Positions 15,358-20,315 of a stretch of DNA of 46,124 nt are shown piece after piece. Where the stretch lies: contig JAJYCS010000009.1 of the NCBI GenBank assembly GCA_021778115.1, positions 1-46,124 on the forward strand. Direction: 5' to 3'. Every line of letters begins with the position of its first letter. Positions within the stretch are counted from its first letter, which is position 1. The position numbers and the translations under genes were made by a program. The DNA comes from Deltaproteobacteria bacterium. GTDB taxonomy: Bacteria; Desulfobacterota; Desulfuromonadia; Geobacterales; Pseudopelobacteraceae. A model generated the notes under the pieces. That model worked only from the letters and a program-made list of their open reading frames with translations. It was not told the origin of the DNA and ran no database searches.

Positions 15358-16452
15358 TCAATCCCCAAAGCAGATCCCGATATCCCTGGCTGTCAGCACC
15401 GTATCGCCGTTGATGTCCACCCGTTTCTTGATCCCCAGGGCCTCACCCAGCGGCACCAGGGCGATATCGGGCGATTTGAGTGCCACCATATGGTCGAAGG
15501 TGCCCATTTCAATCGCCCGCACCGCGGCTGCGCCGAAACGCAGTGACAGCAGGCGGTCGAAGGTGGTGGGGGAGCCGCCCCGCTGCAGATGCCCCAGCAC
15601 CAGCGAGCGGGTGTCCTTGCCGGTGCGCTGGTTAATCTCCTTGGCCACATACTCGGCAATGCCGCCCAGCACCACATGCTGGCGGCCGTCTACCGCCTCC
15701 CCCTTGATGATCACGTCGCCCCCCTTGGGTATGGCCCCTTCGGCCACCACCACAATGGCGTACTTGCGGCCATTCAGCTCGTTTTCCATCAGTTTGTCGC
15801 AGATCTTTTCAAGATCAAAGGGGATCTCCGGGATCAGGATCACATCGGCATTGCCGGAGATGCCGCTGTTCAAGGCGATGAACCCGGCATTACGGCCCAT
15901 TACCTCCACCACCATTACCCGATCGTGGGACTTGGCCGTGGAGTGCAGCCGGTCGATCGCTTCGGTGGCGATGTTGACCGCCGTATCGAAACCAAAGGTA
16001 ATCACGGTGCCGCCCATGTCGTTGTCAATGGTCTTGGGCACCCCCACCACCGGCATTCCCTTTTCGGCGAAGCGGTGGGCGATCTCCAGGCTGCCGTCCC
16101 CCCCCACCGCCACCAGGGCGTCGAAGCGCAGGCGGCGGAAGTTGTCCATGACCTTGTCCGACAGATCACGCTGCTCACACTCGCCAGCAGCATTACAGAC
16201 CTGCATCATGAAGGGGTTGCCCTTGTTGGTGGTACCCAGGATGGTGCCGCCCACGCTGGCAATACCGTCCACCTTGTCCGGGGTGAGGTGGATGATCTCA
16301 TCGGTGTTCAACAGCCCGGCATAACCGGATTTGATACCGTAGACCTCCCACTGGCGGTTGTAGGCGGCCATGGTGACCGCCTCGATCACCGCGTTTAAGC
16401 CGGGGGCATCACCGCCGCCGGTGTTGATGCAGATCTTCATCCGCTTGGACAT
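15358..16452 (-). CDS. 6-phosphofructokinase, group III / PPi-PFK-like subfamily
   Basis: This 364-residue phosphofructokinase differs clearly from the PfkA at 12612-13571. It has CINTGGGDAPGLNAVIEA at the N-terminus, VAVGGDGSLEIAHRFAEKG (Gly120 at the ATP-type position), VPKTIDNDMGGTVITFGFDTA with Lys140 before the catalytic Asp143, and EVMGRNAGFIALN. The PKTIDND lysine is typical of the PPi and group III lineage, while glycine 120 favours ATP, so the phosphoryl donor cannot be fixed from sequence. It lies 27 bp downstream of the CHAT lipoprotein gene and is probably cotranscribed with it. It ends 102 bp upstream of hipA. Confidence 0.93.
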   Translation of the reverse strand: MSKRMKICINTGGGDAPGLNAVIEAVTMAAYNRQWEVYGIKSGYAGLLNTDEIIHLTPDKVDGIASVGGTILGTTNKGNPFMMQVCNAAGECEQRDLSDKVMDNFRRLRFDALVAVGGDGSLEIAHRFAEKGMPVVGVPKTIDNDMGGTVITFGFDTAVNIATEAIDRLHSTAKSHDRVMVVEVMGRNAGFIALNSGISGNADVILIPEIPFDLEKICDKLMENELNGRKYAIVVVAEGAIPKGGDVIIKGEAVDGRQHVVLGGIAEYVAKEINQRTGKDTRSLVLGHLQRGGSPTTFDRLLSLRFGAAAVRAIEMGTFDHMVALKSPDIALVPLGEALGIKKRVDINGDTVLTARDIGICFGD

Positions 16453-16479: not shown

Positions 16480-18798
16480 TTAATCCGCCGCGCCGGTCAG
16501 CTGGAAGGCCGCCCAGTAGAACGGGTGGGGGTATTTTTTCATGATCATACGCTGCGCCTGGGCCAGGGCCTGGGCCTTGTCCATCCGGGAGAGGTTTTGA
16601 TACAAGGCCACCATCATATCCCGGGTTGCCAGATCATCGACCTTCCAGAGGCTGGCAACGATGCTGCGGGCGCCAGCATACAGGAAGCCGCGGGTAAATC
16701 CCAGCAGATCATCCCCATTCGCCACCGTACTGAGTGCGGTATCACAGGCGCTTAAGGTCACCATATCGGCGTTCAGATGCAGCCGGTACAGGTCGGCGGC
16801 GCGGAGCAGACCATCGTTGCCAGGGGTCGGCGCCAAGAGTAGCGCCGAATCCAGAGGCTTCAGGGGATCAAACAGCCCATGGGCCGCTATATGCAGGCGC
16901 CTGAACAACCCTTCATTATTGATGATGGAGGCGATCGTCGCCTGAGCGCCCAACAGCATCGTTGACCCTGGCAGGATTTCCGCCAGGGCCCGGGCCTCTT
17001 CTTCTGCATGCTGCAGGGATAGGCGGTGGTCCCCCTGCTCAGGGTTGCCGAGGATCAGGGCCGGTATGGGCCAGGGCCCCCGCGCCGGGTGCAGATATTT
17101 CGTGATCCCGGCTGCGGGCAGTATCCGCAGGGTATGCCGGTCGATGAACCAGGAACCATCGGCGGCCTGCAGCGCATTGAAGGGGAGGTAATGGAGCAGG
17201 CCGTGGGGGACAATCACCACCTTGGCGGTGAGCATGTCGGCAACCGGCGCGATCAGGCGGGTATAGAGCTCCCTCGACGGTTGCAGGTAGCCGGTTGTAC
17301 GGGGATCGGCGAGCTGTTCCCGGAAGCCCTGTATCCTGGCGTCGAGGTTGTCCAGCTGGATGCTCCTCCCGCGGACTGTGGTGGGAGTGACGACGAAGAC
17401 GTACCAGTGCCGGCCTGAACCGTAGTACTCCAGCAGCGTCTCGTCGCTGGCCAGGGTGCGCTGTATCTCCTGCAGCGTGGTGTCAGTGACGGAGACCAGC
17501 GAGGCGAACTCGGGCGCTTCACGGGTGAGCTGCTGCTTCAGGGCCACGACGAGGCCTCTGGTGGCGGGTGGTGGCGTGGTGGTGCCGGTATCGGGGATGA
17601 TGGTCATATTCCGCTCAGCCTGGGCCATGGTGCTGAACGTCGCGTGGGCCGGTCCCGCGTTGGCCGTCTTGATGGTGATGCTGCCGGCTGAGGCGAGCAG
17701 GTCAACCAAGGCCCTGCTCTTGGCCCGTTCCGCATATTCAAACGCCTGCCCGACCTTGTTGGAGGCCATCAGCAGACGCACCAGCTCCTGATAGATGGCC
17801 TGCTTGTCCCCAACAAAGCCTATTCTGCCCGCTTCCGAGGCGATTGAGGAGCGCTGCTCCTCGACGACCGCTACCGCCTCCTTCAGCAGTCGTTCCGCCT
17901 GGGTGTCGTCACCCTCCCTGCTGGCTATTCTGGCCCGGTCCAGCAGCACCTGCCAGTATATGCCGCCAATCTCTTTGATGCGGGGGTGCTGTAACAGCTG
18001 GTCATAGCCCTGTTTGGCCTGCTGCAGCGCTCCGGTTTCAAACAGCGCCTTGGTTTCCATAAAGAACCGGGGGAGTTCCTGATAGGTCTGGTCGTAGAGG
18101 GAGGTGATGAGTCCAGTGACCTTTGCCTGCGGATTTTGGAGGGCCGCCAGCGCCTGGGCGTAGTTCTTCAGTGCCATATTGATTCTGGCGATGGCGACAT
18201 ACTTCTCCGGTCCCATGATCTCGGAGGAACCGACCGGCAGCCGCTGCAGCGTGCTGAGCCAGTTCAGCGCTTCAGACCGGTTGCCCTGCAACGCCTGGGC
18301 GACACCGGCTATCTCCGTAATCTGGATCAGTTGCGAGCGGAACCAGCCGTTGCTGCGTCCGGCCGGGGTGTCGATCAGGCGGTATGCCTCGGTTGCAGAT
18401 TGGACCGCCTGGTCGTAAGCGCCTTGATCGAGCGCAACGTATCCCCGCATGATCTGGGGATAGGGGAGCAGATTTCCCCCGAAAAAGCTCGTCTCCCCCT
18501 GGTTAATCTGCTTTTGCAGTAGTTGGACCGTGTTCAGGCAGCGTTGATAGTCGCGGACTTCGTAGTAGGCGCCGCTCAGGATGAACAGATCAAACGCCGA
18601 GAGGGAGACGCTGTGATCAAGCTGCGGTTGCAGAGTCCTGATGATGGCGTGGTGCTGTTTCTTCTGGGCCATGGAGCTGATCTTGATGGCCTCCAGCATC
18701 CCCCCGGTGCAGCCGGAAAGCGTTAGGCAGGCCGTCAGGATGATGGCGATCAGTCGTGACGTGTGAAGTCCAAAAGGGGGCTTGTTCATGTTAAGCAC
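16480..18798 (-). CDS. TPR-like lipoprotein with C-terminal CHAT protease domain
   Basis: This protein of about 772 residues has a signal peptide ending in a lipobox (LTLSGC), so it should be lipid-anchored outside the cytoplasmic membrane. A long alpha-helical region of TPR type follows (about 40-350; for example ALDQGAYDQAVQSATEAYRL). The CHAT domain (about 490-770) has the catalytic histidine in HIAAHGLFDP (His640) and cysteine in MVTLSACDTAL (Cys685), plus the usual GARSIVASLW. CHAT domains are caspase-like clan CD proteases. Both catalytic residues are present, so activity is plausible. The start is GTG at 18798 or ATG at 18789; neither has a strong ribosome binding site. Substrate and trigger are unknown. 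Confidence 0.92.
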   Translation of the reverse strand: MLNMNKPPFGLHTSRLIAIILTACLTLSGCTGGMLEAIKISSMAQKKQHHAIIRTLQPQLDHSVSLSAFDLFILSGAYYEVRDYQRCLNTVQLLQKQINQGETSFFGGNLLPYPQIMRGYVALDQGAYDQAVQSATEAYRLIDTPAGRSNGWFRSQLIQITEIAGVAQALQGNRSEALNWLSTLQRLPVGSSEIMGPEKYVAIARINMALKNYAQALAALQNPQAKVTGLITSLYDQTYQELPRFFMETKALFETGALQQAKQGYDQLLQHPRIKEIGGIYWQVLLDRARIASREGDDTQAERLLKEAVAVVEEQRSSIASEAGRIGFVGDKQAIYQELVRLLMASNKVGQAFEYAERAKSRALVDLLASAGSITIKTANAGPAHATFSTMAQAERNMTIIPDTGTTTPPPATRGLVVALKQQLTREAPEFASLVSVTDTTLQEIQRTLASDETLLEYYGSGRHWYVFVVTPTTVRGRSIQLDNLDARIQGFREQLADPRTTGYLQPSRELYTRLIAPVADMLTAKVVIVPHGLLHYLPFNALQAADGSWFIDRHTLRILPAAGITKYLHPARGPWPIPALILGNPEQGDHRLSLQHAEEEARALAEILPGSTMLLGAQATIASIINNEGLFRRLHIAAHGLFDPLKPLDSALLLAPTPGNDGLLRAADLYRLHLNADMVTLSACDTALSTVANGDDLLGFTRGFLYAGARSIVASLWKVDDLATRDMMVALYQNLSRMDKAQALAQAQRMIMKKYPHPFYWAAFQLTGAAD

Positions 18799-18852: not shown

Positions 18853-18978
18853 TTATTTTGTCAGTACCACCAGATCATCGCCATCCGTGCCCAGTAATAC
18901 CGGCTGTTGCTCGTTGCCGGTCAGGCGACGGGCCATGTACGGTACTTGGTCGTTTAGATATGCCTTCATCTCTTTCAT
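18853..18978 (-). CDS. 41-residue ORF resembling the C-terminal tail of a caspase-like (C14) protease
   Basis: The frame starts with an ATG overlapping the rarA stop codon (ATGA) and reads MKEMKAYLNDQVPYMARRL, then TGNEQQPVLLGTDGDDLVVL, then TK and a TAA stop. The layout (an amphipathic 'YLNDQVPYMARR' stretch, then 'EQQPVLLG', then 'DLVVL') matches what I remember of the last ~40 residues of bacterial caspase-like peptidase C14 domains. The catalytic His and Cys would lie upstream and are absent. It is therefore either a gene remnant or a small coupled ORF. It precedes the CHAT lipoprotein gene by 54 bp. The family assignment is from memory and is tentative. Confidence 0.5.
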   Translation of the reverse strand: MKEMKAYLNDQVPYMARRLTGNEQQPVLLGTDGDDLVVLTK

Positions 18979-20315
18979 GTGTCCCCCGCCTTTTTCCCCT
19001 GCTTTTTCAACCATTCCATGCGCTCGATAATGTTTTTTTCATACCCGTGCCCCGTGGGCTGGTAGAACTTTTTGCCCTTCAGCAGGTCGGGGAGGTATTG
19101 CTGCTGTACATAGCCTCCCTCGAAGTCGTGGGCGTACCGGTAGCCCTGGTGGTAGCCCAGTTCCTTCATCAACTTAGTAGGGGCGTTGCGGATAGGCAGC
19201 GGCACCTCCAGTGCGCCTGATTTGCGTACTTCTGACAGGGCTGCATCAATGCCGATATAGGAGGCGTTTGACTTAGGCGCCGTGGCCAGGTAGGTGACCG
19301 CCTGCCCCAGGATGATACGGCCCTCCGGCATCCCCACCATCTGGAAGGCCTGCAGGGCCGCAACCGCCATCTGCAGGGCGCGGGGGTCGGCGTTGCCGAT
19401 ATCCTCCGAGGCCAGGATGATCATCCGGCGCAGGATGAACAGCGGGTCCTCGCCTGCTTCCAACATCCGGGCCAGCCAGTACAGTGCAGCATCAGGATCA
19501 CTGCCACGCATGGATTTGATGAAGGCCGAGATGACGTTGTAGTGCTCATCGCCACCCTTGTCGTATAAGAGCGCCTTTTGCTGTAGCGCCTCCTGCATGG
19601 TCTCCAGGGTGATCTGGCGCTCGGTCGTCAGCCCTGCGGCCACTTCCAGGGTGTTGAGCGCCTTGCGGCCATCTCCCTGGGCCGCCTCGGCCAGAAAGGC
19701 CAGGGCCTCTTCGCTGATGGTCAGCTCGAGGTCCCCCAGACCCTGTTCACGATCCGCCAGCGCACGCCTGATAAGGGCTGCGAGCTCGTCCGGTTGCAAC
19801 TGCTGCAGCCGCAACACCCGGCAGCGGGAGAGCAGCGGGGCGATTACCTCGAAGGAGGGGTTTTCGGTGGTGGCGCCGATGATGGTCACCAGCCCCTTTT
19901 CCACCGCCGGCAGGAAGGCGTCCTGCTGGGCCTTGTTGAATCGGTGGATCTCATCCACGAACAGGATGGTGCGGTGGCCTGCCCGGGCCGTCTCTTCGGC
20001 CTCCTTGAAGATCTCCCGCACCTCTTTGACCCCGGCCATGATGGCTGAAAAAAAGACGAAATGGGCCTTGGTCTCCTGGGCCAGAATATGGGCCAGGGTG
20101 GTCTTGCCGCAACCGGGCGGTCCCCAGAAGATGAGCGAGGGGACCCGGTCGGCCTCGATCATGGCACGGAGCGCCTTGCCCGGCCCCACAAGGTGCCCCT
20201 GACCGCAGAATTCCGCAAGGCTGCGTGGTCGCATCCGCTCGGCAAGGGGGGCGGTGCGGGCGGCCGGTACCGTCTCCCCGGTTGCCTCAAACAGAGGGGC
20301 GCTGCGGCGGCTCAC
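18975..20315 (-). CDS. rarA: Replication-associated recombination AAA ATPase RarA/MgsA
   Basis: RarA (MgsA) is a clamp-loader-like AAA+ ATPase acting at stalled replication forks. The start is a GTG at 20315 that overlaps the glgP stop (GTGA), giving 446 residues, the usual size; a longer frame reading back into glgP is rejected. Motifs are MRPRSLAEFCGQGHLVG, Walker A GPPGCGKT (65-72), Walker B ILFVDEIHRFNKAQQDAFLP, the ATTENPSFEV sensor segment and the C-terminal MgsA region with FIKSMRGSDPDAALYWLARM. The end couples to the small ORF at 18978. Confidence 0.97.
   Translation of the reverse strand: MSRRSAPLFEATGETVPAARTAPLAERMRPRSLAEFCGQGHLVGPGKALRAMIEADRVPSLIFWGPPGCGKTTLAHILAQETKAHFVFFSAIMAGVKEVREIFKEAEETARAGHRTILFVDEIHRFNKAQQDAFLPAVEKGLVTIIGATTENPSFEVIAPLLSRCRVLRLQQLQPDELAALIRRALADREQGLGDLELTISEEALAFLAEAAQGDGRKALNTLEVAAGLTTERQITLETMQEALQQKALLYDKGGDEHYNVISAFIKSMRGSDPDAALYWLARMLEAGEDPLFILRRMIILASEDIGNADPRALQMAVAALQAFQMVGMPEGRIILGQAVTYLATAPKSNASYIGIDAALSEVRKSGALEVPLPIRNAPTKLMKELGYHQGYRYAHDFEGGYVQQQYLPDLLKGKKFYQPTGHGYEKNIIERMEWLKKQGKKAGDT

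Follow-up and report, generated by a model that had tools for sequence, protein, structure and literature searches.

A 41-codon reading frame between rarA and a CHAT lipoprotein gene is very probably the remnant of a caspase-like gene

Does the very short open reading frame between rarA and a CHAT protease gene in this genome encode a peptide in its own right, or is it what is left of a larger gene? The frame lies in a window (the whole stretch of 46,124 nucleotides analyzed here) at positions 18853–18978 of the minus strand and consists of 41 codons and a TAA stop, reading MKEMKAYLNDQVPYMARRLTGNEQQPVLLGTDGDDLVVLTK. Its ATG overlaps the stop codon of rarA as ATGA, just as the earlier note on this DNA had described, and is preceded by the purine-rich GGCGGGGGA. 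The rarA (mgsA) gene (18975–20315, minus strand), the GTG start of which was assigned by hand, encodes an AAA+ ATPase with matches to PF12002 (E = 9.1e-75), PF16193, and PF00004. The gene preceding it is presumably glgP, and a GTGA overlap between this putative glgP and rarA is present at positions 20312–20315. The glgP, rarA, and short frames appear to be one coupled series. On the other side, a gene that we take to encode phosphofructokinase (pfk; 15358–16452, minus strand) represents the conserved far flank of a slot with variable caspase and CHAT genes. A promoter and terminator scan identified two promoter-like sites and one terminator-like site close to the junction discussed below; searches of the window against Rfam at the gathering score and for tRNAs gave no match.

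By itself, a frame of this length is meaningless, and it is the match to caspase C-termini that makes it significant. A search with the 41 residues in 57 genomes, comprising its own genome and those from the genus, family, and order, revealed caspase-tail matches at 12 places in eight of the 56 other genomes (E = 1.4e-17 to 1.1e-5), while nine further genomes matched at E = 0.27–0.84 only and were treated as chance. At eleven of the 12 places, the match forms the C-terminal end of an open frame (356–569 codons); one of these frames (in genome G008) is cut by a contig end. The twelfth place is a stub in genome G010. Identity over the last 38–41 residues ranges from 73 to 82% with the seven main-subfamily copies of the genus, and, judged from these comparisons, the similarity is far beyond chance. 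The likeness to a peptidase C14 C-terminus, which the earlier note had suggested, is borne out by the tails of the relatives' PF00656 proteins, with up to 82% identity. The profile search that it had proposed with the same residues was negative for Peptidase_C14: neither 41 nor 53 residues matched PF00656, and Pfam and NCBIfam together returned no match for the 41. The catalytic His (GHG) and Cys (DACFSG) motifs are absent from the 41 residues, and among the five intact genes scanned, the PF00656 match itself stops at most 12 residues from the start of the tail in three and extends 27 and 30 residues into the tail in the other two. The 41 residues are homologous to part of a gene that is intact at the same place in relatives, and no PF00656 match was found anywhere in the own genome, compared with 12 of 15 genus genomes that have one. 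We are therefore highly confident that the short frame is, by whatever route, the remnant of a caspase gene.

The intact genes indicate what such a remnant would have lost. All five scanned genes bearing the tail contain PF00656, all nine intact caspase proteins examined carry both GHG and DACFSG, and a loose pattern search identified a lipobox-like motif together with both catalytic motifs in each of the seven genes of the same subfamily whose N-termini could be read. A more distant copy in G004 (G004c) has the catalytic motifs and no lipobox by the same pattern. The caspase-like Peptidase_C14 lipoproteins of the genus (in G009, G013, G004, G005, and G008) share their last 38–41 residues with the window frame, but the window copy is without the catalytic domain, the signal peptide, and the N-terminal part. 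In the main-subfamily genes, a loop that fits DxNxDGxIxxxE exactly or nearly so precedes the tail; it resembles an EF-hand loop, with weak Pfam support (PF13202, E = 0.0084 in G009 and 5.3e-6 in G004c). N-terminal of the protease domain, Pfam recognizes ankyrin repeats in G013, G005, and G004, CARDB in the distant copy of G004, and no domain in the first caspase gene of G009. Protease domains that are 79–88% identical stand behind differing N-terminal parts at loci L041, L046, L049, L051, L052, L053, and L057, a pattern that, from sequence, resembles an exchange of sensors ahead of a common protease. Two subfamily copies are present in some relatives, adjacent to each other in G009 and on two contigs in G005; G009 has three successive caspase genes, the middle one being 37–43% identical. 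For two intact relatives, the top-ranking caspase model is NF047832 (NCBIfam, EACC1-associated caspase; E = 7.4e-20 and 8.5e-19), although their scores of 71.3 and 67.9 bits fall below its cut-off of 140. PADLOC gave "caspase" matches at E = 3e-5 and 4.1e-6, and PDC-M72A at E = 5e-12 for the ankyrin part of G013. An AlphaFold2 model of the intact caspase of L060 (mean pLDDT 50.0) was too poor for placement of the tail.

Gene order across the genus, in 14 of the 15 genomes of which rarA was located, relates the short frame to its neighbors. In G013, rarA is followed by a short other frame, an intact caspase gene, and CHAT, so that the comparison of the rarA–CHAT interval in relatives suggested by the earlier note did recover an intact caspase gene there. 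An intact caspase gene also lies behind rarA in G009, and CHAT followed by caspase in G005, and within the genus the slot between rarA and pfk differs in which caspase and CHAT lipoprotein genes it contains. Read by gene order and sequence, the rarA–stub–CHAT arrangement of the window is that of G013 minus the caspase body. A caspase stub behind rarA occurs in the window genome and in G010. No caspase trace was found behind rarA in G001, G002, G003, G004, G006, G007, G011, G012, and G014, some of these having little sequence available in that region. In a search of the DNA that follows rarA at 11 other loci, G010 alone, besides the window, yielded a caspase tail. Protein-level matches in L055 (E = 0.004–0.02, 24–28% identity) were judged to be chance. 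A 38-nt match (E = 1e-4) connects upstream DNA of G004 with a gap of G013, the caspase coding of which is not certain. In G004 a CHAT–caspase pair is located approximately 90 kb from rarA on the same contig, and in G024 such a pair is on a short contig without a rarA match.

The stub of G010 (L044, G010:C168, minus strand) is built differently. Just after rarA, a lipoprotein-like signal peptide, LLFLLSLSSSGC, is joined out of frame to the caspase tail, with the middle of the gene gone and a TAG inside the tail. This is a different loss event from that of the window, and the two stubs together indicate that the locus has lost its caspase at least twice.

How the window stub arose can be approached from its first codons. 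The intact caspase gene of G009 begins ATGAAGGAA (MKE), with a start region reading ATGAAGGAATAC and an ATG that likewise overlaps the rarA stop, and the window start, ATGAAAGAG, stands at the same distance from rarA. The stretch from the MEW/MAW motif to the rarA stop is 14 residues long in the window, G009, and G011, and 10, 11, 12, or 16 residues long in ten other readable ends; G011, with the equal distance, has the pfk gene rather than a caspase behind its ATGA. The window junction reads ATGAAAGAGATGAAGG, compared with ATGGGNGARATGAARG in main-subfamily tails. Codons 1–3 (18970–18978, minus strand; ATGAAAGAG, MKE) fit better with a G009-like start than with the tail and are probably the original caspase start, with the junction here or in the next codon, whereas codons 4–41 (18856–18969, minus strand) match the C-terminal tail that follows the EF-hand-like loop of intact genes. 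The exact breakpoint is not resolvable because GAR is common to both sides.

We propose that an ancestor carried a lipoprotein caspase gene coupled to rarA by ATGA, with the CHAT lipoprotein gene next to it. An in-frame internal deletion between the first codons (ATGAARGAR) and a stretch near the end (ATGGGNGAR) would have removed approximately 1.2 kb from a gene of G009 length (442 codons) or approximately 1.3 kb from one of G013 length (472 codons), so that some three codons of the start would now stand directly before the last 38. Translation of the remnant may still begin at this former start, but its product, lacking the signal peptide, the N-terminal region, and the catalytic His and Cys, would probably be without function. 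The rarA overlap is probably old and not made by the deletion, since G009 has the same overlap before an intact caspase gene. That the deletion was internal and in frame, and that the remnant lacks a function, we infer from these comparisons, and we assign the full account, including an old rarA overlap and a remnant without function, a probability of about three in four. This confidence is tempered by the DNA directly beside the ATG: of the 45 nt that precede it, the first 33 agree with G009 at 26 positions and the last 12 at one, so that the equal rarA distance may be coincidence. In addition, the origin proposed for MKE is read from one relative, G009, the gene of which may not be the direct ortholog.

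The main rival is that the deletion also took the caspase start, so that the tail became joined directly to the 3′ end of rarA, in which case the ATG would be the internal Met of the tail (ITMGEMK) and the overlap would be new. The window ATG does align with this Met in all eight main-subfamily tails, and neither the final rarA residues (AGDT) nor the 12 nt immediately upstream of the ATG resemble those of any relative seen. However, codon 2 is AAA, near the AAG of G009, against GGN in the eight tails, and the distance from the conserved MEW of rarA to the ATG is identical to that of G009, which leaves such a fusion rather unlikely. The proposal of the earlier note that a rarA–caspase–CHAT array had lost its caspase is accordingly upheld by the G013 array and the homologous tails, but its suggestion that the deletion itself fused rarA to the remnant is improbable given the G009 overlap. 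It would also be conceivable that the contig is misjoined and that an intact caspase gene is actually present, as the draft assembly comprises 107 contigs and two subfamily copies, as in some relatives, can confuse assemblers. Against such an artefact, the assembly, with an estimated completeness of 99.26%, contains no other piece of a caspase gene of this kind, and the supposedly misjoined stretches have only few bases in common; we consider it highly improbable.

Returning to the in-frame deletion, the state of the tail bears on how much the remnant still matters. The window tail is undecayed, with three private amino acids and four private synonymous codons, compared with 1–9 and 3–8, respectively, in eight intact tails (in G005b, one of the five private residues is an earlier stop codon), and with pN of 0.14–0.23 against the others, compared with 0.08–0.26 among intact pairs. 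These comparisons left out three distant tails, those of G004c and two of G026, and, because dS is saturated, the age of the deletion cannot be estimated from dN/dS over 41 codons. A recent deletion would explain the lack of decay, and retained function also fits. The short frame could accordingly act as a small protein or couple the translation of CHAT to that of rarA: it is open, in frame, and undecayed, GGCGGGGGA stands before its ATG, and the CHAT start follows 54–63 bp on. Nevertheless, this frame is present in one of the 57 genomes, its product has no export signal whereas CHAT has a lipobox, the G010 stub reads out of frame and contains a stop codon, and a recent deletion accounts for the absent decay. 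The "small functional partner" that the earlier note had considered finds no positive support in these observations, and the conservation of the short frame after rarA in many genomes, by which that note would have dismissed a remnant, was not seen either. Since the signal peptide and the catalytic residues are missing, a function of the stub is unlikely on sequence grounds, and selection on an in-frame stub, either as a rarA-coupled frame bringing ribosomes to CHAT or as a free caspase C-terminal peptide, is highly improbable.

The CHAT gene itself is intact (16480–18798, minus strand). It starts at a GTG 54 bp downstream of the short frame, where the earlier note had placed it, or at an ATG 63 bp downstream, and its product belongs with CHAT proteases by its PF12770 match (E = 1.5e-66) and His/Cys motifs. 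H640, C685, and the lipobox Gly-Cys are invariant in four homologs, and the product is a predicted lipoprotein; its TPR matches are weak and below the Pfam cut-off. Like TPR-CHAT proteases (Csx29 of type III-E CRISPR, NF041237), it keeps the His and Cys motifs and matches the CHAT part of that model, but its 56.8 bits are far below the cut-off of 300, and it differs in being a predicted lipoprotein with TPRs below the Pfam cut-off. PADLOC gave BovA at E = 3.3e-4, and an AlphaFold2 model of the protein (mean pLDDT 57.9) was too poor for tail placement.

A search of the family (76 genomes) identified a close CHAT relative (at least 60% identity) in five other genomes. A subfamily caspase gene adjoins it in G013, G004, and G005 and lies one gene further in G024, and the fifth genome, G014, has a CHAT stub only. 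The latter (L120:107–487, G014:C192, minus strand) is a C-terminal stub of 126 codons from the first start, directly behind a gene of 728 codons to which no query matched. In G089, the CHAT protein is 37% identical, and C14 matches are on other contigs. In a Thermodesulfovibrionales MAG (L061:2004–8319), a 47% identical CHAT is found near a WD40–caspase gene, with a DUF4919 gene between them. An obligate caspase–CHAT pair was not upheld in a phylum sample of 395 genomes: eight genomes besides that of the window have a CHAT match at E ≤ 1e-130, five of which are without a C14 match, while one has C14 approximately 5 kb away on the same contig and two have it on other contigs. CHAT is therefore not an obligate partner of the caspase, and loss of the caspase need not have disabled it.

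Nothing on a rarA–caspase stub–CHAT locus was found in a literature search or in the parts of PMC10907252 and PMC4933709 covered by it. The 41-codon frame is a genuine gene remnant of an ordinary sort and not a novel class of peptide. Its value lies in demonstrating that comparison of a single locus among related genomes can trace a very short open reading frame back to a deleted gene, and in pointing to the interval between rarA and pfk as one of variable caspase and CHAT lipoprotein gene content in this genus. The function of the intact caspases, in which one C-terminal protease domain stands behind different N-terminal parts, would be the more interesting subject.
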